Origin: Haloferax marisrubri
Lineage (GTDB): Archaea; Halobacteriota; Halobacteria; Halobacteriales; Haloferacaceae
Assembly: GCF_001469875.2 (NCBI RefSeq)
Contig: NZ_LOPW02000017.1
Coordinates: forward strand, 124,001 to 188,000
Direction: 5' to 3'
DNA length: 64,000 nt
Position numbers and translations under genes: made by a program
Notes under the pieces: model-generated
What the model was told of the DNA's origin: nothing
What the model saw: only the letters and a program-made list of their open reading frames with translations
Databases searched by the model: none
In this document: positions 37,892 through 61,844 of the stretch, piece by piece
Numbering within the stretch: position 1 is the first letter of the stretch
Layout: every line of letters begins with the position of its first letter

Positions 37892-37926
37892 TATCAGACT
37901 TGATAGATAGGACGAACTGCTTAAGT
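37892..37926 (+). promoter_or_regulatory. Motility-type dyad TATCA-N4-TGATA and TATA box before the histidine kinase
   Basis: The dyad TATCAGACTTGATA occupies 37892-37905. Fourteen bases after its edge comes CTTAAG (37920-37925), a TATA-like hexamer. The same arrangement is found at five other motility or chemotaxis promoters here. Transcription would start near 37950, and the kinase ATG is at 38021 (an in-frame GTG is at 37961). The remaining part of the 37695-38020 gap holds an AT-rich stretch near 37790-37810 on the ArlD/E-like gene's side. Confidence 0.65.
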
Positions 37927-38020
37927 TCCGAACCGCCTACACGTTTGATATCGCTCCGATGTGACACTCATCGGAAAGAACAGTTCCAAGAGAGTCACAG
38001 ATGCGAATCACGACCACTAC

Positions 38021-40147
38021 ATGACCGGCGTTGGGCAGTTCCCGTACGCGTACGCGCTGTTCGCCGCGGGTATCCTCGCTGGAGTCGTGACGCTCGTCGT
38101 TCTCGGTCGGTTTCGGCTCTACTCGCGGCGCGTCCGCCTCCCGTTCGCGATTTTGACGCTCTCCGGCAGTATCTGGGCCACCGCGTACGGGTTCGTCTTC
38201 CTCGCGACGACGCCGGGCGCCGAACTGTTCTACGCACATCTCTCGTGGGCCGGCGCGGCCATCCTCCCCACCATCTGGCTCGTCTTCGCGCTCGTCTACG
38301 CCGGCGAAGACCAACTTCTCACCACACAGATGCTCGGCTTCCTCTCTATCGAGCCGGGCGTCGCAATCGCCCTCGCCCTGACGAACCACTCTCACGGCCT
38401 GCTTGGGTCGCCGCTCAACCTCTGGACGGCCGCGCAGACGGACCGACTCGGTATCCCTGGCCCGGGTCTCCTCGGCCCACTCGGCCCCGAACTCCTCCTC
38501 CTCGCCCACGTTGTTTACGGGGCCGGCGTCGCCCTCGTCGGCGTGACCGTCGTCGGGAAGACGTATCTCAAGAGTTCGAACATCCACCGGCGACAGGCCG
38601 GATTCCTCGTCGTCGCCGGACTGATTCCCATCGGCGCGCTCGTCGGCGAGTTCTTCTTCCCAATCCGCGTCAACCCGGTTCCCGTCTCCCTCGGGGTCAG
38701 TTCGGTCGTCGTGCTCTGGGCGCTGTTCAGACACCAACTGTTCGATATCACGCCCATCGCCCGCGACGCGATTCTCTCCGAGATGCGTGACGCCGTCGTC
38801 GTCCTCGACGGGCAGGACCGAATCGTCGAGTCGAACGGTGCCGCCTCGGAGCTGTTGGAGCGCCCTGTTTCCGAGTGCATCGGCGAGTCCGTCCTCGAAA
38901 GCGTCCGCGTTCCGTCCGAGGTTCGGTCGGTGCTGGACGGTCGAGACAGAGCCGAAGCCGTCGTCGAAGACGGCGGCACGTGTCGCTACTTCGAGGTCCG
39001 GTCCGAATCGCTCGGCGACCGGACTCGCGACCGCGCGCGCCTGCTCGTGTTCTACGACGTGACCGAGCGCCGCCGCACCGAAGAGGAGTTCCGCGCGCTC
39101 ATCGAGAACTCGCGGGACGTCATCACCGTCCTCGACGAGGACGGCGAGCGGACCTACACCAGCCCCTCGATGACCGAGGTGCTCGGCTATCAGACCGACG
39201 CGCTCGTCGGGGAGTCGGTGCTCGACCTCGTCCACCCCGAGGACAGAGACCGGGTCGCCGACTCCCTCAACGCGGTCATCACCGGCGACTCGCCCGTGCG
39301 CGAGGAGTTCAGAATCCGCCACAAGAACGGTACGTGGCGGCGGTTCGAGACGGTCGGCGTCGACCTCCTCGACGACCCCGCCGTCGACGGCGTCGTGTTG
39401 AACTCCCGGGACGTGACGAGCCGCCATCGCTACGAACAGCGTCTCCGGGTGTTGAACCGCGTCCTCCGGCACGACCTCAGAAACGACATGAACGTCATCC
39501 TCGGCCACGCCGACCTCCTCCTCGACGAACGCATCCCCGCCGAGTCGAAGGACCACGCCCGGACGATAAAGCGGAAGGCGTCGTCGCTCGTCGAACTCGG
39601 CGAGCAGACCCGGCACATCGACACGACGCTCACCCGCGGGTCGTCCGGGCTCGAACCCGTCGAGGTGGTCGAGCGCATCGAGGCGCAGTTAGACGACATC
39701 GAGTCCGACTACCCCGAAGTCATCATCCACCGGAACTTCCCCGACGAGATGTGGGTCTCGGCGGACGACCTCATCGAGTCGGCCATCAAGCACCTCATCG
39801 ACAACGCGCTCGAACACAACGACCGCGTCATTCCGGAGGTCGGCGTCACGGTCGAGCGGAGCGCGATGTCGGCCGACTACGTGGAGATTCGAATCGCCGA
39901 CAACGGGCCGGGCGTCCCCGACGCCGAGCTCTCCGTCCTCGAATCCGGGACGGAGACGCCGCTCCAGCACATCAGCGGCCTCGGACTCTGGTTGGTTCAG
40001 TGGATAATCGACCGCTCGAACGGTCGGCTCCGGTTCACGGAGAACGAGCCCAGAGGGACCGTCGCAATCGTCGGACTCCGGAGCGCCGACCGAGCGGCGT
40101 CCATCAGCGACGGCGGAACGGTGACGAGCGAGTCGGAGACGGACTAA
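38021..40147 (+). CDS. Sensor histidine kinase with 7TM sensor and two PAS domains
   Basis: 708 residues from ATG 38021; a GTG at 37961 would extend it by 20. An N-terminal seven-helix 7TM domain (about 1-215) is followed by a PAS domain (about 225-335), a second PAS with PAC (ALIENSRDVITVLDEDGERTYTSPS, about 340-460) and the kinase core. The phospho-accepting His is in VLRHDLRNDMNVIL (about 485), the N box is HLIDNALEHND, and the G boxes are ADNGPGVPD and GLGLWLVQW. No response regulator is adjacent. The shared motility dyad upstream suggests it belongs to the motility regulon or feeds it. Confidence 0.88.
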   Translation: MTGVGQFPYAYALFAAGILAGVVTLVVLGRFRLYSRRVRLPFAILTLSGSIWATAYGFVFLATTPGAELFYAHLSWAGAAILPTIWLVFALVYAGEDQLLTTQMLGFLSIEPGVAIALALTNHSHGLLGSPLNLWTAAQTDRLGIPGPGLLGPLGPELLLLAHVVYGAGVALVGVTVVGKTYLKSSNIHRRQAGFLVVAGLIPIGALVGEFFFPIRVNPVPVSLGVSSVVVLWALFRHQLFDITPIARDAILSEMRDAVVVLDGQDRIVESNGAASELLERPVSECIGESVLESVRVPSEVRSVLDGRDRAEAVVEDGGTCRYFEVRSESLGDRTRDRARLLVFYDVTERRRTEEEFRALIENSRDVITVLDEDGERTYTSPSMTEVLGYQTDALVGESVLDLVHPEDRDRVADSLNAVITGDSPVREEFRIRHKNGTWRRFETVGVDLLDDPAVDGVVLNSRDVTSRHRYEQRLRVLNRVLRHDLRNDMNVILGHADLLLDERIPAESKDHARTIKRKASSLVELGEQTRHIDTTLTRGSSGLEPVEVVERIEAQLDDIESDYPEVIIHRNFPDEMWVSADDLIESAIKHLIDNALEHNDRVIPEVGVTVERSAMSADYVEIRIADNGPGVPDAELSVLESGTETPLQHISGLGLWLVQWIIDRSNGRLRFTENEPRGTVAIVGLRSADRAASISDGGTVTSESETD

Positions 40148-40225
40148 TTGCTGGGAGAATAACTCGGTACCGACCGAACCGCGTCCGAACGCAGGAAAAC
40201 GAGACGACCCGAGAGCCGAGCGTGT

Positions 40226-41317
40226 TCAGGCCGCGTCCCGGAGGCGTACCGCGAGCCTGTGTGCGCCCTCGGCCGGGGCGACAACCGGGTCGTCGGGGAC
40301 GACCACGTTCACCGGGCGGTCGAGTTCCGCGGCGAGACGCGCTTCGAACTCCTCGACTAGACCGGGGATGCACGCCATCCCGCCGGTGACGACGAGCGGG
40401 CGGGCGCGAGCGAGCTGGTAAGTCTTCATGTGCGAGTTCGCCAGCCGCGAGAAGAAGTCGCCGAGTTCGGCGACCGCGCTGTCGAGGTAGTCGTCCAGCG
40501 GCTCCATCACGCCCCGCTCGACGGTGAACTCGTGTGCGCCCTCGGCCTCGCGTTCGACCGCGTCGGTAAAGGGCTCGAAGCCGTCGAAGTCGGCGCGGGT
40601 CTCCTTGTACTCGCGGGCGGTGGCGGGGTCGATAGCCACTCGCCCGTCGGTCTCGGCTTCGACCGCCTCGGCGATGCGCCGGTCGACGCGGTCGCCGGAC
40701 GCCTCCGCGGAGACGAACGGGAGCAACCGCTCTCCGCGTCGGTACGCGCACGCTTCGAGGTTCGTCGCGCCGAGGTTGACAGCGACGAACACCTCGTCGA
40801 GCGCCTCCATGCCGTCGCCGAGCGCCGGAATCGACGCGCACAGCGATTCGGGGACGCCCCGCGCGAGCGCCTCGCCGATGCCGCACTCGCCGACCGCGGT
40901 GCCGAAGTTGGCGAGACCGACCTCGTCGTCGACGGTCGGCATCGCGTAGACGACGGCGCTCTCCGCGGGGAGGTCGTGTCGCTCGCAGAGTTCGCGGACG
41001 AACCGCTCGAAGCGCTCGGCGTCGCGGGCGGTCGCGGGGACGCCCGAGCGGAGCATGAACTCCCCTCGTTCGGAGGGCTGTCGGAGCGCCTCCCCGCCGT
41101 GGCGGCCGCTCCCGTCGCCGGCGAGCGCGCCCTCGTCTTCGTCGTCATCGCCGACGAGGCACGAAGGGAGCCGAACCGTCGTCGCGGCGTCGCCGTCGTC
41201 GAAGACGAGCGCGGTCCGGGCGCTCCCGAACTTGACGCCGACGGCCGTCGGCGCGCCGCTCTCGCCGGCTTCGTTCGTCGCGTCGGCGCCGTTAGCGGCG
41301 GCTCTGTCGTTCGTCAT
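40226..41317 (-). CDS. Actin/Hsp70-superfamily ATPase-like protein
   Basis: 363 residues. The sequence shows the three ASKHA elements in order: a phosphate-1-like strand-turn VGVKFGSARTALVF (about 26-39), a phosphate-2-like VAVNLGATNLEACAYR (about 180-195) and the adenosine motif PLVVTGGMACIPGLVEEF (about 310-327). It resembles MreB/FtsA/Hsp70 ATPase domains without a substrate-binding domain. The canonical Asp of phosphate 1 is replaced by Lys (VKFG), and phosphate 2 lacks the usual Asp (VNLG), so activity is open to question. It follows an ArlD/E-like gene on the same strand by 105 bases, so a role in cell shape or positioning of the motility machinery is possible. Confidence 0.65.
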   Translation of the reverse strand: MTNDRAAANGADATNEAGESGAPTAVGVKFGSARTALVFDDGDAATTVRLPSCLVGDDDEDEGALAGDGSGRHGGEALRQPSERGEFMLRSGVPATARDAERFERFVRELCERHDLPAESAVVYAMPTVDDEVGLANFGTAVGECGIGEALARGVPESLCASIPALGDGMEALDEVFVAVNLGATNLEACAYRRGERLLPFVSAEASGDRVDRRIAEAVEAETDGRVAIDPATAREYKETRADFDGFEPFTDAVEREAEGAHEFTVERGVMEPLDDYLDSAVAELGDFFSRLANSHMKTYQLARARPLVVTGGMACIPGLVEEFEARLAAELDRPVNVVVPDDPVVAPAEGAHRLAVRLRDAA

Positions 41318-41422
41318 GCGGTATCAACTCGATTCGGACTCGGCGGGCGGGTGATGCGCGCAGTCATGGTATACACTCGGTTGTCGGAAGGAGAGACCGT
41401 GTTCGAGACCCGGCGGTCGGCG

Positions 41423-41983
41423 TCACACCATCGAGGAGAGACGGGCGACGTAGACCAGGCTCAGCAGGTGGTCGTCGACGTCGAGGTCGGTCGGTTCGTC
41501 GACGTCGGCGGAGAAGCCGAGGAGGTAGTCCCGGAGCGTCTCCTCGACGTCGGGCGTGACCCAGTCGACCGTCTGGTAGTACCGGAGGGCGTCCATCGCC
41601 CGCTTGAACCCGCCTTTGAGGACGAGAAACTCGAGCCAGTCGAAGACGACGCGCTCCGCGCCGTACTTGTCCGGAAGCGAGCGGAGGTACGGCTTTTCGA
41701 CGCCGTCTTCCTCGCCGCGAGACTGGTGGACGAGCAGGTGTTCGAGCTGGCTCGACCGGAGCGCCTCGGACGCCTCCTGTCGGCTCCGGTCGAAAAGCGG
41801 GTTGTCGAACCGGAAGGGGCTCCGGTCGTCGAACCGGCCGTCGTCGAAGCGGCTGTCATCGAATCTACCGTCATCGAATCTACCGTCATCGAATCGGCCG
41901 TCGCCGTTCCGTCTGGGTCGTGGGGCGTCACGCGCGATACGTCGAAGTTCGTCTGGGTCGTATTCGTCCGGGTCCAAGTACAT
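41423..41983 (-). CDS. ArlD/E-domain protein with GRFDD repeats
   Basis: 186 residues. The N-terminus (1-25) is DPDEYDPDELRR. Residues ~30-58 consist of GRFDD-type pentapeptides, coded by near-identical 15-bp units (about 41825-41905). The C-terminal ArlD/E domain (about 95-186) has VVFDWLEFLVLKGGFKRA, a YYQTVDWV segment and VDDHLLSLVYVARLSSMV. It is preceded by the motility dyad at 42135-42148, so it is probably regulated with cheY and arlA. Likely a component or regulator of the archaellum cytoplasmic ring. Confidence 0.75.
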   Translation of the reverse strand: MYLDPDEYDPDELRRIARDAPRPRRNGDGRFDDGRFDDGRFDDSRFDDGRFDDRSPFRFDNPLFDRSRQEASEALRSSQLEHLLVHQSRGEEDGVEKPYLRSLPDKYGAERVVFDWLEFLVLKGGFKRAMDALRYYQTVDWVTPDVEETLRDYLLGFSADVDEPTDLDVDDHLLSLVYVARLSSMV

Positions 41984-42114
41984 GGGTCACCTCGTTCAGG
42001 ACGGCACGATTCCCCCCAAGTCCCCCGACTCAGGGCGGCGGAGAGCGCAGAGCGCTGTCCGTGGTGTCACACGCGATATCGCACCGTGTCGGTGAAAGCA
42101 TTCGAAGGGGGCGA

Positions 42115-42148
42115 CATAAATCTATTCGAGGCGCTATCAGAACTGATA
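42115..42148 (-). promoter_or_regulatory. Motility-type dyad and TATA box before the ArlD/E-like gene
   Basis: The dyad TATCAGAACTGATA (plus-strand reading) spans 42135-42148 with arms TATCAG and CTGATA. Reading the minus strand, TTTATG begins 14 bases beyond the dyad at 42120. The start codon of the ArlD/E-like gene at 41983 is about 135 bases further. No plus-strand gene faces this site. The rest of the 41984-42272 gap shows nothing else. Confidence 0.7.
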
Positions 42149-42272
42149 TCTCCGGTCGAACACCGAGACGTCGAGGGCAGTATCGTTGGCGGCTCGGCTC
42201 GGCGGACTCGGTCGGCGCTCGACGTGTTCACTCCGGGCGAGAGTCTCGTCGAAATTCGGCGGAAAAACAGCG

Positions 42273-42782: not shown

Positions 42783-42806
42783 TGCTGAGGTGCCTCTACG
42801 GAGGGT

Positions 42807-43994
42807 TCACGCGGCGGGCGAGAGTTGCTTGAGCGCCTTGCGCAGCTCCGTCTCGTCGGGCAGCGCGTAGATATCGCAGGTGAACTCGTCGTCGTCCGTC
42901 CGAATGGTCGAGTCGATGAGGAACGCGTACTCCTGAGACTGCGCGAGATCGGTCGCGAGCGGGTCGATGATGGCCGACCCGATATCGTGGACGTGCTTCG
43001 GCGGCGAGATGTCGATGGTCGTTTCGAGCGCGTTGGCCCAGCCGTCGAGGAAGCCGGAGGTCGTGATGTTCCCGATTTCCTGAATCGCGCTCTGGCGCAT
43101 CGCTTCGTCGCCCTCCATACCCGGGAGGAGGCTACTCGCGATGTTCTCGGCCGACGGCTCGTCGAAGAGGATGGCGATGTAGCCGCTCGGCGTCCCGCTG
43201 AACTCCAAGACGACGCCGCGGCGAACCGCGTCGGTCAGCGACATCGGCACCCCCTCGATGGGGACGAAGCTCAGCCGACTCACCTCGACGGTCGTGTCGA
43301 TACCCGTCATCGCCGTGATGTCCTCCGAGGCCTGATTCGCGCCGTCGTTTATCATCTCGGAGAAGGCGGCGAACGACTCGACAGGGAGCGCGCCGTCCTC
43401 GCCGCTCGCCTCGACGATGGTCTCGATGGACGAGGCGGTCGGCACCATGTACAGGTCGAACTCGATGGCGTTGTCCGCGGCCTCCAACTGGTTGCGGAAG
43501 ACGAGCACGTGCTCGTCGTCGCCGCCGTTCTCGAAGCCCTCGGCGTCGACGTGGTCGAGCGGGCCGTCGTTCTCGTCGTCGACGTAGGTCGGCGTCGTGA
43601 TATCGACGGTGGTGTCGAGGTAGTCGGCCCAACCGTCGATGAAGCCGCCGAGCATGATGTTCGCGACCTCCTTCAGGCTACTCTCGGCGAGTTCTCCCTC
43701 GGCGTCGGTGGCGTCGATGCCCGGCATCAGCGCGTCGACCAACCGCTCTGCGGACTCGGGTGAGAACGCCAACACGGTGTGGCCGTCCAGCCCGCCCGAA
43801 AAGCCGATGTGGACGCTCACGAGGTCGCGCTCGGCGAACTCGTTTTCGACGTCTGACTTCGTTCCGAGTTCCACCTTGGTGACGTTGACGTACGTGTCGA
43901 TACCGGCGAGCGTGGTCAGAGAGCCCGCGGCTTTCTCCGCGCCCGAGTGGGCGAGCCGACTGAACGTGCGAAGCGACCGGACGTCGAGATTCAT
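42807..43994 (-). CDS. cheC: CheC-type CheY-P phosphatase, tandem two-domain form
   Basis: 395 residues, double the size of a single CheC. Two CheC domains follow one another. The first (about 30-190) has the active helix SSLKEVANIMLGGFIDGWADYL, the second (about 225-385) has SAIQEIGNITTSGFLDGWANAL. Each keeps the (S/D)-x3-E-x2-N signature of CheC phosphatases. CheC dephosphorylates CheY-P and interacts with CheD. The start overlaps the cheY stop by four bases (ATGA), so translation is coupled. Confidence 0.93.
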   Translation of the reverse strand: MNLDVRSLRTFSRLAHSGAEKAAGSLTTLAGIDTYVNVTKVELGTKSDVENEFAERDLVSVHIGFSGGLDGHTVLAFSPESAERLVDALMPGIDATDAEGELAESSLKEVANIMLGGFIDGWADYLDTTVDITTPTYVDDENDGPLDHVDAEGFENGGDDEHVLVFRNQLEAADNAIEFDLYMVPTASSIETIVEASGEDGALPVESFAAFSEMINDGANQASEDITAMTGIDTTVEVSRLSFVPIEGVPMSLTDAVRRGVVLEFSGTPSGYIAILFDEPSAENIASSLLPGMEGDEAMRQSAIQEIGNITTSGFLDGWANALETTIDISPPKHVHDIGSAIIDPLATDLAQSQEYAFLIDSTIRTDDDEFTCDIYALPDETELRKALKQLSPAA

Positions 43995-44359
43995 GCCTCA
44001 GCCTGAATCACGTCGGCGATTGCCTGGAGCACGTTCGGCTTCTGGAACGGCTTCGTGATGTAGCCGTCCGCCCCCGCCTCGACCGCCTCGCGCATCTTTT
44101 CTTCCTGTCCGACCGACGTGCACATGATGACCGATGCGCCGGCGTCGAGTGACTTGATTTCGGACGTCGCTTCGATGCCGTTTCGAATCGGCATCACGAC
44201 GTCCATCGTGACGACATCGGGTTCGAGTTCGCGGTAGAGTTCCACCGCTTCGACCCCGTTTTCGGCCTCGCCGACGACTTCGTGTTCACCCTCGAGGAGC
44301 TGTTTGAGGAGGTTCCGCATGAACGCAGAGTCGTCCACGACCAGTACCTTGCTTGCCAT
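43991..44359 (-). CDS. cheY: Chemotaxis response regulator CheY
   Basis: 122 residues, a single receiver domain. The acidic pocket is D9-D10, the phospho-acceptor is Asp53 (VVTMDVVMP), and T81/S82 and Lys103 (YITKPF) complete the switch. Phospho-CheY contacts the archaellum through CheF and the ArlCE/D ring to reverse rotation. ATG 44359 is preferred; the 30 extra in-frame codons upstream have no receiver homology and would cover the promoter. First gene of cheY-cheC-cheD. Confidence 0.96.
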   Translation of the reverse strand: MASKVLVVDDSAFMRNLLKQLLEGEHEVVGEAENGVEAVELYRELEPDVVTMDVVMPIRNGIEATSEIKSLDAGASVIMCTSVGQEEKMREAVEAGADGYITKPFQKPNVLQAIADVIQAEA

Positions 44360-44384
44360 ACCTCCAGATTTCCGAAAATCACAC

Positions 44385-44418
44385 CATAAACCCTTCCTCC
44401 CCATTATCAAGGCTGATA
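44385..44418 (-). promoter_or_regulatory. Motility-type dyad and TATA box of the cheY operon
   Basis: The dyad lies at 44405-44418 (plus reading TATCAAGGCTGATA). On the minus strand the hexamer TTTATG begins 14 bases downstream, at 44390, and cheY starts at 44359, which fits a TATA box at about -27 with a very short leader. Confidence 0.72.
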
Positions 44419-44521
44419 CGGCATCGAGAGCGCGGTTCGCCCGCGTCACACCGTATCGGCTGAGGATTCGAGCGTTCCGCCGCTCGAACCGGAACCCGTC
44501 ACCGGCGCGTCATCGGCCGCA

Positions 44522-45181
44522 TCAGCGTCGGCGCGGCGGGAACGAAGCGCCGGTGTCTTCGACGGCGTCGAGAAGGTCGCCGATGCTGTCGTCGCGTCCG
44601 AGTCCGTGTGCAGTCGCGAGCGCCTCGACGGCTCGGGCGGGATAGGTGACCTGCACCTCCGAAGCTAAAAGCAGGATACCGAGCACCTCGTCGCGCGGCG
44701 TGTCGGCGCTGCCGACGGCGTCGGCGTACCACGAGAGAAACGAGTTGACGACCTCGGTCACGTCGTCGGAAACGGTCTCGTGGCGGGTGACCTCGCCGTC
44801 GACGAGCGCGGTGGTGACGAGCGCGTGGTCCGCGCGGACCGCCCCGACGCGTTCGGCGAGCAGGCGGCGGGCGAGGACGGCCCGCTTTTTCGGGTCTTTC
44901 GGGAGGACGAGTTCGGGAGTCGGCGCGTCTTCGCCGCGCTCGCCGTCCTCGGTTTCGTCCTCGGAACCGGGCGGTGTGGCGGCCGCCGCGTCGGACGCTT
45001 GACGCTCGTCGTCGGCGGCGTCATCGACCGGCGTTGGCGGCCTGTTGTCTCCCGTCGAGATGACGTACCGGCCCGTGTCGAGCGCCGCGACGTGCTCGTC
45101 GCGGCTGATATCCAGGTCCTCCGCCCCGACGACACCCTGTTCCCGCGGGTGATTGGGAGGACGTTCGTCCTCGTCGTCCAT
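44522..45181 (-). CDS. Haloarchaeal protein of unknown function in the chemotaxis cluster
   Basis: 219 residues from ATG 45181. The N-terminal ~100 residues are acidic and low in structure (DEDERPPNHPREQG, DDAADDERQASDAAAATPPGSEDE). The C-terminal domain (about 115-210) is mostly helical: PELVLPKDPKKRAVLARRLLAERVGAVRADHALVTTALVDG and LGILLLASEVQVTYPARAVEAL. No domain is recognised (possibly DUF7500). It lies upstream of cheY on the same strand and is divergent from the wHTH gene. A CheY-operon promoter separates it from cheY. Confidence 0.65.
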   Translation of the reverse strand: MDDEDERPPNHPREQGVVGAEDLDISRDEHVAALDTGRYVISTGDNRPPTPVDDAADDERQASDAAAATPPGSEDETEDGERGEDAPTPELVLPKDPKKRAVLARRLLAERVGAVRADHALVTTALVDGEVTRHETVSDDVTEVVNSFLSWYADAVGSADTPRDEVLGILLLASEVQVTYPARAVEALATAHGLGRDDSIGDLLDAVEDTGASFPPRRR

Positions 45182-45313
45182 CGGCGGATGCTCGGTGCCG
45201 TGGCATATAATCCCATCGTCACCGTGCGTGGGGGACTCACTACTATGACTGAGAACGTGGCAGATGGACAACCAACACATTGACAAGCCGCGCGTCCTGA
45301 TAAATCTCCATCT

Positions 45314-45652
45314 ATGGAGTCTGACAGGACCCTCTCGGCACTGGGGAACGAATACAACCCAGACATCCTCCGTGCCGCGGACGAACCCCACTCGGCACAG
45401 GAGTTCAGCGAGATGTTGGATATTCCCATCGCGACCTGTTATCGCCGAATCGAGGAACTGACGGCCGCGGGCCTCCTCGAACTGCACGACCGGGTTCTCT
45501 CCGACGAGCACCGACGAACGAACGTCTACCGCCGCGAAGTCGACGAAATCGTCGTCCGGTTCGAAGGCGACGACTACACGGTCAGCGTGACCGAGCGCCC
45601 GGAGGTGAAGAACAAACTCGACGACGTGTGGCGGAAGATTACGCAGGACTGA
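45314..45652 (+). CDS. Small winged-helix transcriptional regulator, candidate archaellum regulator
   Basis: 112 residues. An ArsR-like wHTH: LSALGNEYNPDILRAADEPHSAQEFSEMLDIPIATCYRRIEELTAAGLLEL (about 7-57), then a wing (DEHRRTNVYRREVDEIVVRFEG). It is followed by the archaellin genes on the same strand. Its position directly before arlA1 and its DNA-binding fold make it the first candidate for binding the dyad shared by motility promoters. Only a half-site (TGATA at 45298-45302) is seen before this gene itself. It shares the small wHTH layout of the methanogen archaellum regulator EarA, though orthology is not established. Confidence 0.78.
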   Translation: MESDRTLSALGNEYNPDILRAADEPHSAQEFSEMLDIPIATCYRRIEELTAAGLLELHDRVLSDEHRRTNVYRREVDEIVVRFEGDDYTVSVTERPEVKNKLDDVWRKITQD

Positions 45653-45758
45653 ACCGCTCCGGCTCCGGACTCTTTTCTTACGTTTTCTGAGGTAAGTACC
45701 ACTAGCGTCTCGCGTGAGCGTGCGAAGTATTTTACTTATCGACGCATCGGCCGTGCGA

Positions 45759-45794
45759 TATCAGTCTTGATAGTGAGGGCCGTAGCGTTATGTA
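45759..45794 (+). promoter_or_regulatory. Motility-type dyad and TATA box of arlA1
   Basis: The dyad TATCAGTCTTGATA is at 45759-45772. Fourteen bases after it comes GTTATG (45787-45792), the likely TATA box. Transcription would start near 45815, giving a leader of about 50 bases before ATG 45866. A second AT-rich stretch, TATTTTACTTATCG at about 45728-45741, lies just upstream of the dyad and could be an alternative promoter. Confidence 0.68.
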
Positions 45795-45865
45795 GCACCT
45801 GTCCCAGTTGACGAGTGACGGTTCCCCGCTCCCCGCTGAGTGTGGGACCAAACCCACGACAACCC

Positions 45866-46507
45866 ATGTTCGAAAACATCAAAGAAGACCGGGGTCAGGT
45901 CGGTATCGGGACCCTCATCGTCTTCATTGCGATGGTTCTGGTCGCCGCAATCGCGGCGGGCGTCCTCGTGAATACGGCTGGCTTCTTACAGGCCACTGCC
46001 GAGGACGCCGGACAGCAATCCGTGAACAAGGTCACTAACCGTGTCGACGTCGTCAACGCCCACGGACTGGTCAACCAGTCCGGTGAGGAGCGTACCGTCG
46101 ACCAGATCTTCCTGACCGTTCGTCTCGCGGCCGGCTCCGGAAGTGTCTCTCTCGAAGATACGACGGTCAAGTACCTGAGTGAGACCACCGCGCGGACGCT
46201 CACCTACAACGACACCAACGCCGCCAACGATCAGGCGGACCCCGCTAACCTGACGACTGGCAACAACTTCACCGCGGGCGTCCTCGAGGACAGCGACGGT
46301 TCGTTCGAGGTCCTCAACGAGCAGTCCGACCGCGCTGAGATCGTCATCAACACCTCGACGGTCGAAGGCTCCTCCGCCAACGGTACGGCGACGGGCCAGA
46401 CGGTCAAGCTCGACATCACCAGCCGCAACGGTGGTACGACGCAGGTCATCCTGACGATGCCCCAGCAGCTCGCGGGCAAAGATAACAACGACCCCATCGC
46501 GCTCTAA
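45866..46507 (+). CDS. arlA1: Archaellin A1 (filament subunit)
   Basis: 213 residues from ATG 45866. A class III signal peptide with preceding charged residues ([10 protein letters not shown]) is cleaved by the prepilin peptidase after Gly10 (RG|QVGIG). The hydrophobic assembly helix [27 protein letters not shown] follows. The mature beta domain has six sequons (NQS, NDT, NLT, NFT, NTS, NGT), matching N-glycosylated haloarchaeal archaellins. It polymerises into the rotating filament. The first ~55 and last ~17 residues are almost identical to ArlA2. Base composition is lower in GC than the flanking genes. Confidence 0.96.
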
Positions 46508-46517: not shown

Positions 46518-47114
46518 ATGTTCAACAACATTACTGACGACGACCGCGGTCAGGTCGGTATCGGCACGCTCATCGTCTTCATCGCGATGGTTCTGGTCGC
46601 CGCAATCGCGGCGGGCGTCCTCGTGAACACGGCCGGCTTCCTGCAGGCGACTGCCGAGGACGCCGGTGAGCAGTCCGTGAACAAGGTCACCAACCGCGTC
46701 GAAGTCCTCAACACCCACGGGACGGTCGGCGACGGTGACCACATCGACAACATGACGCTTACTGTCCGTCTTGCGGCTGGATCGGACGCTGTGGACATGA
46801 ACGAAACGTCGATTAAGTACCTCAGCAGCGACAACGTCGTCACGCTTACGAACAGTACGTCTGCAACGGCGACTGCAACGGAGTTCAACCTCTCGAAGGT
46901 AACCGATGACGATGGTTCCTTCGGCGTGCTTAACAGCATGAACGACCGCTACGAGGTCGAAGTCAACACGGATGCGATCGAAGGTTCTGGCCTCGAAACG
47001 GGCGAGCAGGTCACCCTCGAAATCACCTCCCGCACGGGCGGGACGACGCAGGTCATCCTGACGATGCCCCAGCAGCTCGCGGGCAAGACGCAGGGCGAAC
47101 CGGTCGAACTGTAA
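46518..47114 (+). CDS. arlA2: Archaellin A2 (filament subunit)
   Basis: 198 residues. Signal peptide [11 protein letters not shown] with cleavage after Gly11 (RG|QVGIG), then the same assembly helix as ArlA1. The central variable part has sequons NMT, NET, NST and NLS and is 15 residues shorter overall than ArlA1. The C-terminus [17 protein letters not shown] is shared. The gene follows arlA1 by ten bases with its own strong ribosome-binding site. In related Haloferax the second archaellin modulates filament properties; that role is assumed here. Confidence 0.95.
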
Positions 47115-47478: not shown

Positions 47479-48219
47479 TTACTCGGTCTCTTCGCCGAAC
47501 CACGGCGGGGATTCGCCGACCATGGAGAACCCGGCCGCCTGCTCGTATATCTTGATGCCGCCCTGTGCGATCTCCAGCGGGAACATCGAGTTCTTGATGC
47601 TCTGCTTGCGCATCTTCGCTACCCAGATGTAGCGGTTGCTCGTCGCGCCCGCGGGGCTCTGGATGAGGTAGATGTTCCCGTCGGTCAGGAAGTTCTCGAG
47701 GCCGATGTCGGTCTCGGGGAAGATGGCCGACTGCTCGGTGGTCAGAAGCGAGGTGAGGCCGCTGTCCTTCAGGATGTCGATGAACTTCAGCAGGTACTGG
47801 CGCTGTTCTTTCTCGTCGTCGAAAAACAGCTGGAACATCGTCAGCGAGTCGAGGACGAGTCGGTCGTAGTTGGTGTCCTGCAGGTCGCCGAGGATGCGGT
47901 CGAGCGTCGTCGAGAAGTCACCGTCGCGGAGGAGCGTCCGCTTGTCGTAGACCTTGATGTCACCGGACTCGACGTACTCGTGCCAGCGGTCGAAGCCGAT
48001 GGACTCGGCCGCCTCGCGGATGTCGTCTTCGGTCTCTTCGAAGGTGAGATACAGGCCGCCTTCGTCGAACTGGTCGACGCCGTTGTAGAGGTACTGGAGT
48101 CCGAGGATACTCTTCCCTGTCCCCGGGTTGCCGCTGATGAGCACCGCGGCGTTCTTGACGATACCGCCGTTCAGGATGGAATCGAGCCCTTCGACACCGG
48201 TCTTGACTAGTTCTGTCAT
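47479..48219 (-). CDS. cirA: KaiC/RecA-family ATPase CirA, motility modulator
   Basis: 246 residues, a single KaiC domain. Walker A GNPGTGKS is at residues 30-37, with GLYLTFEETEDDIREAAE and Walker B region DRLVLDSLTMFQLFF. It lacks the second KaiC domain and autophosphorylation loop of cyanobacterial KaiC. It is related to ArlH, the KaiC-like archaellum protein. Haloferax CirA, encoded between archaellin and arlCE genes, has been reported to influence archaellum expression and cell shape; the name is by that synteny. It is divergent from arlCE across a promoter carrying the motility dyad. Confidence 0.8.
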   Translation of the reverse strand: MTELVKTGVEGLDSILNGGIVKNAAVLISGNPGTGKSILGLQYLYNGVDQFDEGGLYLTFEETEDDIREAAESIGFDRWHEYVESGDIKVYDKRTLLRDGDFSTTLDRILGDLQDTNYDRLVLDSLTMFQLFFDDEKEQRQYLLKFIDILKDSGLTSLLTTEQSAIFPETDIGLENFLTDGNIYLIQSPAGATSNRYIWVAKMRKQSIKNSMFPLEIAQGGIKIYEQAAGFSMVGESPPWFGEETE

Positions 48220-48330: not shown

Positions 48331-48385
48331 GGAAATACCGGGGCGCACAAATATCGGGTCTGATAACGGGACGGGAACTTTCTTG
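48331..48385. promoter_or_regulatory. Motility-type dyad between cirA and arlCE, with TATA-like boxes on both sides
   Basis: The dyad is TATCGGGTCTGATA at 48352-48365 (one mismatch in the left arm). Towards arlCE, TTCTTG starts 14 bases away at 48380; towards cirA on the minus strand, TATTTC starts 14 bases away at 48337. The symmetric placement suggests one bound regulator controls both genes. The 48386-48528 stretch holds a short in-frame-compatible open frame (48410-48532) discussed under findings; the cirA side (48220-48330) shows nothing else. Confidence 0.6.
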
Positions 48386-48528
48386 TACCGACTTACGTAC
48401 CTTGCACCAATGTTACCTGCTCCCCCGAGTCCGTCGGACCGCCCCGGCCGGTCCGCCGCTCGGACGGGTGACAGGCCGTCGCTCGAACGAATCGCCTCGC
48501 AGACGGTGCGGAGGTGCTCGCCGCGAGC

Positions 48529-49971
48529 ATGATGGAGTGGCAGAACGACGAAGACACGGCCGACGCCGGGGACGAAACGGACACGGAAGGACAACACATG
48601 TCATCAGACGATGGACTTGGATTCGAGGAGGGGATAGACGACCTCTCCGACGAGTTTGGTGACTTCGGCGACGACCTCGACGACGGATTCGGCGACGACG
48701 ACGAATTCGGCGGATTCGGCGACGACAACAGCGAGGAACTCGCAGAGCTCGAAGATCGCATCGGCGAACTCGAGAACGAAGTAAGCGCCATCTCGTCGGG
48801 GATGAACACCGTCCGCGAAGAGAACAAACAGATCGGTGAGACCGTCGAAGAGCTCGACGACACGATTCGCAAACTGCTCGACATCTACGAGATGGTCACC
48901 CGCGGCATCAACCCGTTCGTCGACGACGCCCGCGAGATGGGTGGCCTCGACGGCGGTGGCGGGTCGTTCGGTCTCTTCGAGGCGGAAGCCGAAGACGAAG
49001 AGCACCTCGACCCGGAGGTGGCGAACGCCGACGCGGAGTCGTTCTTCGACGACGACTTCGGCGAACTTGACGCCGAGGAGGGCGCGAAGGAAGCGGAACT
49101 CGCCGCGGAGGACGAACTCGTTGAAGCGGAACGCGAGAGCCCCGCGGACGTGCTCGATGACGACGACGAGACCGACGAGGCCGACGACTCGGGCGGCGCG
49201 GGCGGCGCGAGCTTCGACGACCTCAAAGAACAGTACGAGGAGGGCGGCGGCTGGGACGAAGAAGCGGAAGAGGAGGCCGACGAGGCCGACGACCTCGCCG
49301 CCGCTGCCGACCTGGAAGACGAAGAAGAAGCGACGTTCGACGACGCGGAGTCGGTCGAACCCGAGGTCGAGGCCGACGAGGACGAAGACGACTTCCCGGT
49401 CGAGGAGGCGCTCGACGCCGACCCGGCCGACGAAGCGTCCGAACCCGAACCCGAGCCCGAACCGGAGCCAGCGGTCGAAGACGCCGACGGCGACGTTCGC
49501 AAGACGCTCGACGAACTGGAGGCCGAGTACGCCACCGCGGCGATGGCCAAAGACGAGTTGTCCGACGACGCGGCCGACGAGGACGATTCGGCCGCCGAAC
49601 CCGACCCGTCCCCGGCGGTCGAGGAGTCAGACGCCTATCTGACGGGTCTCCCGTCGAACTACGTCTCCGAGGTGCTCGTCCTCGAATGGGCCGAACACCT
49701 CGTCACGGTCGGCGGCGCGCTCGGCGCGTCGCGCGCGCTTCGCCAGTATCGGGAGCAGGACTGGATATCGCGCGCCGTCGAGAGCGAACTGAACGCCCAC
49801 GTCGGGCAGATAGCGCCGTCGGTCGAAGACGCCGACGACCACGAACTCCGCATCGACGACCACCAGACGAGTCTCGCGTACGTCTGCCGCCTCGCGGAGG
49901 ACGTTCCGCGGGGACAACTGTACGACGAGTTGGTCGCCTACGGGGGGAGATTCGATGGGATTCGGTGTTAG
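48529..49971 (+). CDS. arlCE: Fused ArlC-ArlE archaellum ring protein
   Basis: 480 residues. Starts at ATG 48529, though ATG 48532, ATG 48598 or GTG 48514 are possible. The ArlC-like part (about 45-150) is a coiled coil (EELAELEDRIGELENEVSAISSGMNTVREENKQIGETVEELDDTIRKLLDIYEMVTRG). A very acidic linker of about 210 residues (DDLAAAADLEDEEEATFDDAE and EPEPEPEPA runs) leads to the C-terminal ArlE domain (about 375-480: VLEWAEHLVTVGGALGA, IDDHQTSLAYVCRLAEDV). It forms the cytoplasmic ring under the motor that receives the CheF signal. First gene of the arl operon. Confidence 0.92.
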   Translation: MMEWQNDEDTADAGDETDTEGQHMSSDDGLGFEEGIDDLSDEFGDFGDDLDDGFGDDDEFGGFGDDNSEELAELEDRIGELENEVSAISSGMNTVREENKQIGETVEELDDTIRKLLDIYEMVTRGINPFVDDAREMGGLDGGGGSFGLFEAEAEDEEHLDPEVANADAESFFDDDFGELDAEEGAKEAELAAEDELVEAERESPADVLDDDDETDEADDSGGAGGASFDDLKEQYEEGGGWDEEAEEEADEADDLAAAADLEDEEEATFDDAESVEPEVEADEDEDDFPVEEALDADPADEASEPEPEPEPEPAVEDADGDVRKTLDELEAEYATAAMAKDELSDDAADEDDSAAEPDPSPAVEESDAYLTGLPSNYVSEVLVLEWAEHLVTVGGALGASRALRQYREQDWISRAVESELNAHVGQIAPSVEDADDHELRIDDHQTSLAYVCRLAEDVPRGQLYDELVAYGGRFDGIRC

Positions 49972-53253: not shown

Positions 53254-53257
53254 CGAG

Positions 53258-55000: not shown

Positions 55001-56109
55001 CTGAAGACGGACCACAGACCCGAGATTCGATGCCAGACGCGGCAGGCGAACAGACCGCACAGGAGGCCCGCTCCCGCGCGCCCGAAGGGGGCGACGTGGC
55101 GAAAAGCGACCTCCTGCAGGCGTACCGCCGGAAGAAGTCCGAGCCGTCGGACGAACGCGAGGAACAAGAGCGGGCGCGCTCGAAGAAACAGACGGAAAAG
55201 CGGACCAGCGACGGCGAATCAATCGTCGTCGACTTCGTCGCCAACTTCGTCGCCGGCGGCAACGCCTCGTTCGAGCCCGTCAAGGGCCGCGTCCTGATGA
55301 GCCAGCGGCGGCTCATCCTCGCCACCTCGAAGGCCAAGACCGTCATCCCCATCACCTCCATCTTCGATATCGCCGTCGGGCAGGTCCCCCCGGAGGTCGA
55401 GGAGTTCTTCGACTACACGGTGATGGTCGGCTATATCATCGGCCGCCAGCGCCGGACGACCGTCATCGGCGGCGACCGCGAGACCATCGAGAAGTTCTCG
55501 CTGTTGCTGTTCCGCGCGGCGCTCAACGGCTCGCGCGCGCAGGTCACTCACCCGGCCCGCATCGGCGGGCGCGTCCTCGACACGGAGCGACAGCCGTCCG
55601 GCCTGCATCTCGACTACGAGGCCGTCACGTTCCCCGACGACGACGGCCCGCTCACGGAGAACGGCGACCCGTTCCACATCGACCTCGCGAGCGTCATCTT
55701 CTTCGAGGTGCTCGAACGGACCGTCGACGGCGAAAAGCGACTGGTGCTTTCGGTCCAGCACGTCAAGCAGGGCCAGACGGTCACCTCCGAGATAACGCTC
55801 GACTCGCGGCGGAAGATGAACATCCTCGGGCGCTACCTCAGACTCGTCTACCACTGGATAAAGTCCGGCGTCCGCAACGTCGAGGTCACGGAACAGGGTC
55901 TCGAAGTCCTCGTCGGACTGTACTCCGCCGGCGAGATGGCCGCCGAGGTCGACTTCAGCGAACTCCTCGGCGTCGAAGAGGAGGTCCTCGAAGCGGAACT
56001 GGAGAAACTCCACGAGGAGGAACTCATCGGCGACGACGAGCTTCCGACCTCGCTGACGCCGCAAGGGCGGTTCGTCGTCAACGAGGAAATCGAAGACGTG
56101 AACGTCTGA
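54997..56109 (+). CDS. cheF1: CheF family chemotaxis adapter (longer paralogue)
   Basis: 370 residues. The first 80 residues are charged and disordered. The CheF/DUF439 core begins at about 80 (VDFVANFVAGGNASFEPVKGRVLMSQRRLILATS) and ends in a winged-helix-like region (TEQGLEVLVGLYSAGEMAAEVDFSELLGVEEEVLEAELEKLHEEELI). CheF proteins link CheY, CheD and CheC2 to the archaellum ring. It shares the core with cheF2 at 56604-57470. Last gene of the arl operon. Confidence 0.9.
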   Translation: MTEDGPQTRDSMPDAAGEQTAQEARSRAPEGGDVAKSDLLQAYRRKKSEPSDEREEQERARSKKQTEKRTSDGESIVVDFVANFVAGGNASFEPVKGRVLMSQRRLILATSKAKTVIPITSIFDIAVGQVPPEVEEFFDYTVMVGYIIGRQRRTTVIGGDRETIEKFSLLLFRAALNGSRAQVTHPARIGGRVLDTERQPSGLHLDYEAVTFPDDDGPLTENGDPFHIDLASVIFFEVLERTVDGEKRLVLSVQHVKQGQTVTSEITLDSRRKMNILGRYLRLVYHWIKSGVRNVEVTEQGLEVLVGLYSAGEMAAEVDFSELLGVEEEVLEAELEKLHEEELIGDDELPTSLTPQGRFVVNEEIEDVNV

Positions 56110-56183
56110 AACTGTTTTTTTAGCGGGAGCGGTTCCGTCCGATGGTTGCGAAGAACTATCAACTGGGCAACTAATCGGCCACC

Positions 56184-56546: not shown

Positions 56547-56603
56547 CGAGCGCGACGCGTCGCTCTCCGTCCGGTGACTGCCCCGCAAAAATCCGAGTGC
56601 CGA

Positions 56604-57470: not shown

Positions 57471-57473
57471 CGC

Positions 57474-58316
57474 TCACCTCCCGACCGCGGTGTCGCTCGC
57501 GCGGTAGATGCGGAGTCGTTTCTCGACGGGGTCGAACTGCTGTCTACACGTCGGCGGGATGGTCTCTGTCATGCCGATGGTGAGATAGCCGTCCGGCTTC
57601 AGCGCGGAGCCGAGCGTCTCGAAGACGGCGCGCTTCGACTCGGCGTTGATGTAGATGAACAGGTTCCGGCAGACGACGAGGTCGAACGTCCCCGGCGGCT
57701 CCTCGCGGATGAGGTCGCGCCGCTCGAAGCGGACCATGTCGGTGACGGCGTCTTTCACCTGGAAGGTGTCGTCGTCGCGGTCGACGAAGCGCTCCCAGCG
57801 GCCGATGGGGTCGAGCTGCTCGGCCACGTCGTTCGTCTCGGAGGCGCGGTACTCGCCCGCTCTGGCGGCGCGGAGAATCTCGCGTTTGATGTCCGTGCCG
57901 ACGATTTCGATGCGTCGCTCGTCGACGCGGTCGTCGTCGTGGGCGAGCATCGCCAGCGAGTAGGCCTCGCGGCCGTCCGAGCAGGCCGCGCTCCATATCT
58001 TGATGGGGTCGTGGCGGCTCCCCCGCGAACTCAGGTCGCGGAGCACCTCGCGGAGCGCCTCCCACACCTCGGGGTTCCGGAAGAAGCTCGTCACGTTGAC
58101 CGACAGCGCGTCGAGGAGCGCCTGCTGTTCTTCTTCGTCGTCGGTGAGGAGGTCGTGGTACGAGCCGTAGTCGTCGACGCGTCGCCGCCGCATCCGCGCG
58201 GAGACTCGGCGGTCGAGATAGGCGTCGTTGTACGAACTCGTCTGGAACTGCAGGGCGTCTTCGATGTAGTCCAAGAGCCGGCCGAACGCCGGGTCGTCGG
58301 TCGCGGACGAGGGCAT
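57474..58316 (-). CDS. cheR: Chemotaxis protein methyltransferase CheR
   Basis: 280 residues. An N-terminal helical domain (about 1-75) and SAM-binding domain with NVTSFFRNPEVWEAL, IKIWSAACSDGREAYSLAML and DLVVCRNLFIYI. It methylates glutamates of chemoreceptors for adaptation. The start codon shares its first base with the cheA stop codon (TGATG). Confidence 0.94.
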   Translation of the reverse strand: MPSSATDDPAFGRLLDYIEDALQFQTSSYNDAYLDRRVSARMRRRRVDDYGSYHDLLTDDEEEQQALLDALSVNVTSFFRNPEVWEALREVLRDLSSRGSRHDPIKIWSAACSDGREAYSLAMLAHDDDRVDERRIEIVGTDIKREILRAARAGEYRASETNDVAEQLDPIGRWERFVDRDDDTFQVKDAVTDMVRFERRDLIREEPPGTFDLVVCRNLFIYINAESKRAVFETLGSALKPDGYLTIGMTETIPPTCRQQFDPVEKRLRIYRASDTAVGR

Positions 58317-60553
58317 CAGTCGGCCGCCTCCTCGGCGGTGTCTGGGAGTTGGCTCGGGTCGAACTCGCGCATCGCTTGCTCGCCATCAGCCGGGAGTTCG
58401 AGCGTCGAGATGTCCAGAATCGGGATGACGTTCCCGTCGCCGATGACGGCCGTTCCCGACAGTCCGCCGACGCCCGACAGCGGCCCCTGCAGGGGAGTCA
58501 CGACGACTTCCTCCTGTTTCGTCACGCCGTCGCAGTGGAGCGCGACCTGCCTGTCGTCGGGGCGGATGCGGACCACCATGCCGTCGTCGGGTTCCGGCGA
58601 GTCGATTTCGAGCGCCTCGCGGAGCCGAATCAGCGGGAAGATGGTCTCCTCGTGGACGATGACCTCCGCGCCGTTGACCGTCTGGACGCGGTCGCGGCGG
58701 CTAATCTCGTCGATGTACTTGATGGGGACGCCGAACTCGCGGTCTTCGACCTGCACGAACAGCACCTTGATGATGGCGACCGACACCGGCAGGCGGATGT
58801 TGAACGTGCTTCCCTCGCCGGGTTCGCTCTCGACCGACACCGACCCGTCGAGCGATTCGACGGTCGTCTTCACCACGTCCATGCCGACGCCGCGGCCGGA
58901 CACGTCGGTGATTTCGTCGTTGGTCGAGAAGCCGGGGTGGAAGATGTAGTCGTACACCTCGCTGTCGGGCATCTGGTTCACCTCCTCGCGGGTCGCCACG
59001 CCCTTGTCGACGGCCTTCTCGCGGACGGCGTCGGCGTTGATACCGCCGCCGTCGTCCTCGACGGTCACGATGACGGTGTCGTGTTGACGGCGCGCGGAGA
59101 GTCTGATTGTCCCTGTTCGGGACTTGCCGTTCGCCTCGCGAACGTCGGGGTCTTCGATGCCGTGGTCGACGGCGTTCCGGAGGACGTGCATCAGCGGGTC
59201 GGAAATCTCGTCGAGGATGGTGCGGTCGAGTTCGATGTCCGCGCCCTCGACCTTGAACGAGACGCGCTTGTCCTGTTCGCGAGCGAGGTCGCGCACCAGT
59301 CGGGGGAACTTGTCGAACACCTTCTTCAGCGGGATGAGCCGCATGTCCATCACGGTGTTCTGGAGGTTCGACGAGATCTTGTCCAGTTCGTCGAGCGTGT
59401 CGAGCGCGGTCGTCTGGCCCACGTCGATGGCGTTTCTGAGCTTGATGCGACTCGTCACCAACTGCTCGACGAGTTCGTGGAGTTCGTCGAGTTGGTCGAC
59501 GTCCACGCGGACGGACTTGACCGCCGAGATGGAGCGCGCCTCCTTTTTCTTCTCCGCGCCGGAGTCCGACGACTGTTTGTCGTCGGCCGATTCGTCGTCG
59601 CCGTCGGTCGGTTCGGCTCCGTCGGCGTCGTCCTCGCTGCCGTCGTCGCCCCCTACCTCGTCGGCGGTTGCGTCCGCGCCGATGTCGTCGGGACCGTCAG
59701 CGTCGGCACTCGGGTCGGTCTCGTCCGACGCCGGGGTGTCTCCTTCGGCGTCCGCGTCGGAGTCGGAGGCCGGCTCATCGCCGGCGTCCGCGGTTTCGCC
59801 TTCGGCGGCGAGCGCGTCGGACACGTCGGTCGTCTCGACCGTCGAGACCTTCCAGAGGCCGTCGAGTTCGCTCTCGACGACGGCGGCGTCGAGCTCGGCG
59901 ACGAACAGGTCGAAGCCGTCGCCGAACTCGCCGTCTTCGATGGCGTCGCGGTTCGGGTTCGCCCCGACCACGTCGAGGTCCTCGGGGATGCTACTGAGGA
60001 AGATACCGGCGTCGACGCCCTTCATCTGTCCCGCGTCGAGTTCGACGTGGGCGTGAGTGAGCGTGGTCGCGTCGAGGGCGTCCGTGTCGACGCAGTCGGC
60101 GGCGAGAGAGTCGAGGTCGACCGACTCGCGGTCGGCCTCGTCAGGCGCCGCCGGGTTCGAGTTTCCCGTGTCACCTCCGTCCTCGACGGCGGCGCGAATC
60201 TCCTCGACCGTGTCGGTCGGGTCGATGGTGGACTCGCCGTTCTCCTCGATGTCGTGGAGGATTTCCACGATGAGGTCCATCCCGTCGAAGACGAGGTCCA
60301 TCCGTTCCGCCGTCACGTCGAGTCGCTCGTGGCGAATCTCGTCGAGGAGGTCCTCGACGGCGTGGGCGACGGTCGCGGCGTTGTCGAAGCCCATCGCGCC
60401 GAAGTTCCCCTTCAGCGTGTGGGCCTGCCGGAAGATGTCGTCGATGGCCTCGGTGTCGTCCGGGTTCGACTCCAGCGACAACAGCGAGTTGTTCAACTGC
60501 GTGATGCTCTCTTCGCTCTCGGTGATGAATGCTTGGTAGAGTTCTTCGTCCAT
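58316..60553 (-). CDS. cheA: Chemotaxis histidine kinase CheA
   Basis: 745 residues. P1 (HPt) domain with phospho-His45 (FRQAHTLKGN). A P2-like domain (about 155-245) precedes a very acidic linker (about 245-340). P3 dimerisation helices (DVDQLDELHELVEQLVTSRIKLRN), P4 ATPase core with N box (LMHVLRNAVDHGIE), G1 VEDDGGGIN and G2 GRGVGMDVV, and the C-terminal CheW-like P5 complete it. CheA phosphorylates CheY and CheB in receptor arrays. Domain order and length are normal for a haloarchaeon. Confidence 0.96.
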   Translation of the reverse strand: MDEELYQAFITESEESITQLNNSLLSLESNPDDTEAIDDIFRQAHTLKGNFGAMGFDNAATVAHAVEDLLDEIRHERLDVTAERMDLVFDGMDLIVEILHDIEENGESTIDPTDTVEEIRAAVEDGGDTGNSNPAAPDEADRESVDLDSLAADCVDTDALDATTLTHAHVELDAGQMKGVDAGIFLSSIPEDLDVVGANPNRDAIEDGEFGDGFDLFVAELDAAVVESELDGLWKVSTVETTDVSDALAAEGETADAGDEPASDSDADAEGDTPASDETDPSADADGPDDIGADATADEVGGDDGSEDDADGAEPTDGDDESADDKQSSDSGAEKKKEARSISAVKSVRVDVDQLDELHELVEQLVTSRIKLRNAIDVGQTTALDTLDELDKISSNLQNTVMDMRLIPLKKVFDKFPRLVRDLAREQDKRVSFKVEGADIELDRTILDEISDPLMHVLRNAVDHGIEDPDVREANGKSRTGTIRLSARRQHDTVIVTVEDDGGGINADAVREKAVDKGVATREEVNQMPDSEVYDYIFHPGFSTNDEITDVSGRGVGMDVVKTTVESLDGSVSVESEPGEGSTFNIRLPVSVAIIKVLFVQVEDREFGVPIKYIDEISRRDRVQTVNGAEVIVHEETIFPLIRLREALEIDSPEPDDGMVVRIRPDDRQVALHCDGVTKQEEVVVTPLQGPLSGVGGLSGTAVIGDGNVIPILDISTLELPADGEQAMREFDPSQLPDTAEEAAD

Positions 60554-60555
60554 GG

Positions 60556-61656
60556 TCAGGTAGTGAGCCCGCTGAGTGCTTCGTCTGCGATTCGCCCGTC
60601 GGCCGAGACGGTGTCGACACAGCCGGCCTCGATGGCCCGCTTCGGCATTCCGAAGATCGCGGAGGTCGCTTCGTCTTGTGCGACCGTGTGGCCGCCCGCC
60701 CGCTTGATTCGGGTCATCCCCTCGACGCCGTCGCGGCCCATGCCCGTGAGCAGGACGCCGGCCAGCGGCGCGTCGACCGTCTCCGCGGCCGACGCCATCG
60801 TGAGGTCGATAGCCGGTTTGACGCCGTGGAGCGGCTCGTCGTCGGAGAGTTCGAGCCGGAGGCGTCCGGCGCGGTCGCCGGTCACGAGGAGGTGCGAACC
60901 GCCGGGTGCGATGCGAATCTGCCCGGGGCCGATTCGCTCGCCGTCGGCCGCCTCTTTGACTTCGTAGTCACACCGACCGTCGAGCCGCGCCGCGAAGCGC
61001 TTCGTGAAGCCGGCCGGCATGTGCTGGACGACCAGCACGCGGAGACCGGCCTCCTCGGGGAGCGCAGCGAGCAACCGCTCGACGACGTTCGGCCCGCCCG
61101 TGGACGCGCCGATAATCAGCGTCGAGCCCTCGGTCGGGAGCGACCCGGTCGTCCCCGATGTCGACGGTGCCGACCCCGTGGTCGCCGCCGACTTCCGCTC
61201 CGTCTTCGGCGGGCGGGAGCCCCGGCGCGTCGCCGAGAGGTCGACCGCCGCGGCGGACTGAATCTTCTCGACCAGTTCCCGCTTGACGCGGGGCATCTCG
61301 GAGGTGACTTCGCCGCCCGGTTTCGTCACGAAGTCGACCGCCCCCCTGTCGAGCGCCTCGAACGTCACGTCGGCGTCCTCCTCGGCGTGCGCCGAGAGCA
61401 TGAGGACGGGCGTCGGACACTCCTCCATGATGGCCTCGACCGCGTCGAGCCCGTTCATCTCGGGCATCTCGATGTCCATCGTCACCACGTCGGGTCGGTT
61501 CGCCTCGACCACCGAAATCGCCTCGCGGCCGTCGGCCGCCTCGGCGACGACCTCGACGTCCGCGTCTTCGAGGAGCGTGCGAATCAGCGTCCGCATGAAC
61601 CGCGAGTCGTCGACGACGACCGCTCGCGTCGGTCCCGCGTCGGCGACCGAACTCAT
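60556..61656 (-). CDS. cheB: Chemoreceptor methylesterase CheB
   Basis: 366 residues from ATG 61656 (GTG 61665 is in frame). Receiver domain with phospho-acceptor Asp61 (VVTMDIEMPEMNG), a linker rich in Ser/Thr/Gly, and the methylesterase domain with catalytic Ser (GASTGGPNVVE), His (VVQHMPAGFT) and Asp (TGMGRDGVEG). It removes methyl groups from receptors and can deamidate. Two bases separate its stop from the cheA start. First gene of the minus-strand che operon. Confidence 0.95.
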   Translation of the reverse strand: MSSVADAGPTRAVVVDDSRFMRTLIRTLLEDADVEVVAEAADGREAISVVEANRPDVVTMDIEMPEMNGLDAVEAIMEECPTPVLMLSAHAEEDADVTFEALDRGAVDFVTKPGGEVTSEMPRVKRELVEKIQSAAAVDLSATRRGSRPPKTERKSAATTGSAPSTSGTTGSLPTEGSTLIIGASTGGPNVVERLLAALPEEAGLRVLVVQHMPAGFTKRFAARLDGRCDYEVKEAADGERIGPGQIRIAPGGSHLLVTGDRAGRLRLELSDDEPLHGVKPAIDLTMASAAETVDAPLAGVLLTGMGRDGVEGMTRIKRAGGHTVAQDEATSAIFGMPKRAIEAGCVDTVSADGRIADEALSGLTT

Positions 61657-61790
61657 CGCCCCCACCCGCCGGTGCCGGGACGACGGGCGCGCTGAGTCGC
61701 CGAGCGGGCCCCCCGCCGAGGGCTCGGTGGCTTCGTTAGTGTGCCGTTTCGTTGACCGCTCATCTACCTCCGTGGTTCGGAAATCGGGTA

Positions 61791-61844
61791 TATAAACACT
61801 CGGCGAGGATAATCACGGCTGATAATCGGGTACGTATCTTTATA
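61791..61844. promoter_or_regulatory. Divergent cheB-cheW promoter centred on the motility dyad
   Basis: The dyad is AATCACGGCTGATA at 61811-61824 (one mismatch). TTTATA starts 14 bases away on each side: plus strand 61839-61844 for cheW, minus strand 61796-61791 for cheB. The two TATA boxes are thus symmetric about the dyad. cheW ATG 61885 would have a leader of about 15 bases. Confidence 0.75.

Follow-up and report, generated by a model that had tools for sequence, protein, structure and literature searches.

Dyads before the archaellum and chemotaxis promoters of Haloferax marisrubri as probable operators of CsmR, with a TATA-like box at a fixed distance of 14 bases

Which regulator, if any, reads the 14-bp dyad TATCA(N4)TGATA (N4 being any four bases) that recurs before promoters of the motility and chemotaxis island of Haloferax marisrubri, and is this operator new? 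The question arises from a 64-kb window (contig NZ_LOPW02000017.1, positions 124,001 to 188,000), by which we mean the whole stretch of DNA analysed, in which the original prediction had placed six such dyads and knew of no described haloarchaeal archaellum operator of such sequence. This last claim is out of date, because the dyad is the motif obtained by chromatin immunoprecipitation sequencing (ChIP-seq) for CsmR (HVO_1209) of Haloferax volcanii, published in June 2026 (PMC13286277), and csmR lies inside the window (45314..45652, + strand). Its 112-aa product, a winged-helix regulator assigned by Pfam and synteny, is the expected binder of the dyads. We put the probability that the window dyads are CsmR operators, already known in the same genus, at roughly 0.88.

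In H. volcanii, the motif was present in 50 of 65 CsmR ChIP-seq peaks, and the element described on arl and che promoters spans ~34 bp next to the TATA box; deletion of csmR raised the units ArlA1/A2, those beginning with ArlC and with CheB/A, CheY/C/D and ArlD/HVO_1202 (PMC13286277). One dyad stands before each window counterpart of these units, and the gene order csmR-arlA1-arlA2-cirA matches that of H. volcanii (PMC13286277). Seven named Haloferax species other than H. volcanii have a CsmR 100% identical to the csmR product of the window, and the island DNA is ~90% identical to that of several of these species.

All six predicted dyads are in place, four matching the consensus exactly and two with one mismatch; beyond them the 64-kb window holds no site with up to one mismatch, while at up to two mismatches it holds 14 sites, against 2.4 expected and a maximum of 7 in 100 shuffles. 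The exact dyads are TATCAGACTTGATA (37892..37905, +), of CsmR type and facing a seven-transmembrane (7TM) histidine kinase gene, TATCAGAACTGATA (42135..42148, -) at the arlD-like/salactin unit, TATCAAGGCTGATA (44405..44418, -) at the cheY-cheC-cheD unit and TATCAGTCTTGATA (45759..45772, +) at arlA1-arlA2. Those with one mismatch are TATCGGGTCTGATA (48352..48365, +) at the arlCE operon and the bidirectional AATCACGGCTGATA (61811..61824) between cheB/cheA and cheW. A second dyad-like sequence with two mismatches, TGTTATAACTGATA, occupies positions 37793-37806, 99 bases upstream of the kinase-promoter dyad.

A TATA-like hexamer had further been predicted 14 bases past the dyad in eight gene-facing directions. 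All these hexamers do start at exactly that offset, and seven directions are upheld: CTTAAG toward the kinase (37920..37925, +), TTTATG toward the arlD-like unit (42115..42120, -) and the cheY unit (44385..44390, -), GTTATG toward arlA1 (45787..45792, +) and the weak TTCTTG toward arlCE (48380..48385, +), these five being kept in other Haloferax loci, as well as TTTATA toward both cheB (61791..61796, -) and cheW (61839..61844, +). The eighth, TATTTC facing cirA, is probably fortuitous and should be dropped because it is not conserved: relatives carry GGTTTC, AATTTT or ATTTCT in its place, and cirA was rejected as a target of the 48352 dyad on the same ground. TTCTTG, poor as a TATA box, is nevertheless kept in all 11 other Haloferax loci; at the arlCE promoter this unusual hexamer persists throughout the Haloferax, Halogeometricum and Halobellus loci in which the dyad was found (L086-L106), and Salinigranum has TTCATG. 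Dyad (14), spacer (14) and TATA box (6) together make 34 bp. Purines at positions -6 and -3 of the B recognition element (BRE) are conserved beside the dyad, so that a test for weakness of the BRE at these promoters showed none.

The genome-wide scan with one mismatch allowed, proposed as a check of the 14-base spacing, revealed a non-random peak at the same offset. With TATA boxes scored by a simple hand-made matrix on both sides of 38 sites (76 flanks), a TATA-like hexamer was found at offset 14 in 18 flanks; the runner-up offset had 5, and none of 2000 shuffles gave more than 7 at any offset. An exact pattern search of the 3.9-Mb genome gave nine dyads, four of them in the island, against two for the reversed control pattern. 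All nine stand before motility, taxis or rod-shape genes, the five outside the island preceding rdfA (Pfam RdfA, 8.7e-71), two protoglobin methyl-accepting chemotaxis protein (MCP) genes, one PAS-MCP gene and one HAMP/dCache receptor-type gene. Three of these four receptor-type genes carry MCP signalling domains, and the HAMP/dCache_1 gene has its MCP domain in a separate listing. Further MCP genes follow some of the one-mismatch sites, and 6 of 15 MCP genes have a dyad with at most two mismatches and a TATA-like hexamer at 14, no more than 125 bases from a plausible start; two more fit loosely, with the TATA box at 16 in one and the dyad 325 bases from the start in the other. One-mismatch dyads with a TATA-like box at 14 also occur ahead of a DUF7332 gene and a MaoC-like gene (L010 1501, + and L049 2001, +), which are possible non-motility targets of CsmR.

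How far does this arrangement extend? In other Haloferax loci, the half-sites of five island dyads are kept save scattered single changes, while N4 is free to vary; the 61811 site with its two TTTATA boxes lay outside the compared flanks, which makes this footprint one of five dyads. The kinase-promoter dyad (up to one mismatch) with CTTAAG at +14 was present in 10 of 10 other Haloferax loci reaching it. A recurrent AATCA(N4)TGATA dyad flanked by TATA boxes on both sides in Haloarcula-type loci may be the counterpart of the 61811 site. Across Halobacteria, 75 of 86 csmR loci (at least 15 kb each, with some near-duplicates from two collections) contained a dyad with up to one mismatch and TATA at 14, and five control patterns gave 0 of 86. 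In four loci (L067, L070, L079, L082), the csmR homologue apparently lies outside the archaellum cluster, the only nearby hit among eight island proteins searched being cirA-like; three of the four are without the dyad and TATA at 14.

In a survey of 394 genomes, in which the csmR-positive average was taken over 173 genomes, grouped by genus, out of about 330, Haloferax had 9.1 exact dyads per genome against 0.73 for the control, several other csmR-bearing genera had about 4-5.5, and 63 genomes lacking a close homologue of csmR had 0.62 against 1.0. Tracking of archaella instead of csmR was rejected: 15 genomes with FlaC and no csmR hit better than 1e-17 showed no enrichment (12 dyads against 15 for the control), and since archaellated genomes lacking csmR have no dyad excess, the motif follows csmR. 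These genomes (G036, G037, G048, G099, G221, G253, G301, G056, G087, G130, G132, G249, G273, G367 and G393) are in tension with the published claim of an invariable co-occurrence of csmR and archaellin genes in Halobacteria. In genus g3, three genomes without an archaellum (G014, G315, G318) held 13-26 exact dyads with no TATA peak at 14 (loci L197-L211); this excess was judged compositional and rejected as a regulatory signal, because the sampled loci have 47% GC and the TATA spacing is missing.

Taken together, these data support well that part of the original prediction which placed a dimeric regulator close to the promoter on its upstream side, in constant helical phase; whether it activates or represses by contact we only infer. 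A CsmR dimer would place one recognition helix in TATCA and the other in TGATA, half-sites whose centres are 9 bp apart, about one turn, and would sit close to the BRE on its upstream side, with the dyad edge held 14 bp from TATA so that the dimer could touch transcription factor B (TFB) and the TATA-binding protein (TBP) on one DNA face. Since the BRE purines are conserved beside the dyad, TFB should lie between CsmR and TBP. In this manner CsmR would coordinate the arl, che, chemoreceptor, 7TM-kinase and rdfA units at the level of transcription, and a dyad flanked by TATA boxes on either side would serve two divergent promoters. We lean toward CsmR being an activator, perhaps able to switch sign, because the dyad is upstream and the non-consensus TATA boxes (TTCTTG, GTTATG, CTTAAG) are conserved. 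Archaeal activators typically bind upstream of the BRE at promoters with weak TATA/BRE (PMC5512572). More tentatively, we propose that the dyad, the 14-bp spacing and the (BRE) TATA box define a dedicated taxis-promoter class in much of Halobacteria, working through CsmR-TFB/TBP contact, the transcript rise upon csmR deletion being indirect; if so, this class would be a functional parallel to the bacterial sigma-28 regulon.

Several points weigh against the CsmR explanation. CsmR binding at the dyads is published for H. volcanii and predicted for the present strain, and the deletion of csmR there raised target transcripts while motility was lost (PMC13286277); the rise suits repression or a mixed role, and is treated as a paradox by the authors themselves (PMC13286277). 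The csmR-bearing genera g9 and g26 show no exact-motif excess, so the site has drifted or is unused there, and sites in related species are non-independent observations.

The explanation that competes most seriously with activation is that CsmR is a repressor which, bound beside BRE/TATA, hinders TFB/TBP or polymerase loading, the ordered spacing serving efficient occlusion. We regard it as less likely, although the deletion raised the motif-containing, strand-matched targets most (PMC13286277): a dyad edge 14 bp from TATA leaves the BRE free, the conserved TATA boxes depart from the consensus, as is typical of activated promoters, and motility was abolished by csmR deletion and increased by overexpression (PMC13286277). 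It would be far less probable that another partner, such as a different winged-helix regulator or an alternative TFB, reads the dyads and csmR is a bystander. Haloarchaea have multiple TFBs, which counts for this explanation, as does the number of CsmR-like hits, several in each genome (10 in G000), but ChIP-seq in the same genus places CsmR on the motif (PMC13286277), and no motif excess accompanies archaella in genomes without csmR. That the matches are chance AT-rich words ahead of promoters, with no regulator, is practically excluded by the shuffles, control patterns and footprinting. Chance matches do exist, as the many in g3 genomes without TATA spacing attest, but the Haloferax excess over the control, the sharp offset-14 peak and the conserved half-sites around a variable N4 contradict such an origin here.

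Concerning the regulator itself, CsmR was placed in the Lrp/AsnC family (PMC13286277), whereas its Pfam match is HTH_20 (36.1 bits, cut-off 27), and Pfam found no C-terminal AsnC/RAM effector domain in it. The best Foldseek hits of the CsmR model (pLDDT 74.6, moderate) include Phr (2p4w, E 1.8e-4, TMq 0.62), AbfR2 and PH1932, the last matched by a sequence profile as well (E 0.007), and no entry named Lrp/AsnC is among the 50 best. Phr and other ArsR-like proteins are among the nearest solved folds, which we note as a caution and not as a reassignment because the model is of moderate confidence. Autoregulation of csmR through a dyad was rejected, no dyad with up to two mismatches being found between the cheY promoter and csmR.

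The genes of the island were recognized as follows. The target of the first dyad is a 7TM-PAS sensor histidine kinase (37961..40147, +; Pfam HisKA_7TM 3.6e-42, PAS, HATPase_c). The arlD-like gene (41423..41983, -; Arch_fla_DE) is followed downstream by a salactin-family actin-like gene (40226..41317, -; Pfam Salactin 4e-139), which shares its dyad-controlled unit and thereby connects the motility regulon with an actin homologue. cheY (43991..44359, -; Response_reg 1.6e-30) has its ATG start at 44359. Between cheY and csmR lies a DUF7500 gene of unassigned function (44522-45511, -), whose listed open reading frame start, overlapping csmR, is probably set too early. The archaellin genes arlA1 (45867..46507, +) and, after it, arlA2 (46518-47114) match Arch_flagellin (4.3e-32 and 7.2e-36). 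The KaiC-like cirA (47479..48219, -; KaiC 4.2e-51), unsupported as a target of the 48352 dyad, precedes arlCE (48514..49971, +; FlaC_arch 2.3e-23, Arch_fla_DE 2.4e-20), the first gene of the arl operon, which reaches cheF (54997-56109). Next come cheA (58316-60553; HATPase_c, CheW, Hpt), which follows cheB (60556..61665, -; CheB_methylest 1.3e-59) in its unit, and cheW (61885..62379, +; CheW 2.2e-25).

A site that took ChIP-seq to find has thus been independently reproduced from bare sequence. Useful additions, drawn from genome comparison, would be the recurrence of the CsmR site with its spacing in many csmR-bearing haloarchaeal genera, the fixing of this spacing at exactly 14 bp and the co-distribution with csmR, by which the site is extended beyond one species. 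The published data allow activation as well as repression, and the conserved spacing together with weak TATA boxes makes these promoters directly testable.

Among known systems, Ptr2 of Methanocaldococcus jannaschii, an Lrp-family protein, is unlike CsmR in its multiple sites and different regulon. It is similar as an upstream-bound archaeal activator that recruits a general factor, TBP (as described in PMC5512572). EarA of Methanococcus maripaludis is a winged-helix archaellum regulator bound directly upstream of the BRE and thought to recruit TFB, but it uses four 6-bp sites and CsmR one dyad (PMC5512572); the CsmR paper reports no sequence similarity between the two proteins (PMC13286277). 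Although we found neither the exact 14-bp spacing nor any conservation of the site outside Haloferax in the available text of that paper, the H. volcanii CsmR regulon (PMC13286277) shares with the window the identical consensus, the genus, the transcription units, the adjacent TATA box and the position of csmR beside arlA1/arlA2, and it includes as a co-regulated gene rdfA, which is preceded by an exact dyad in the present genome.
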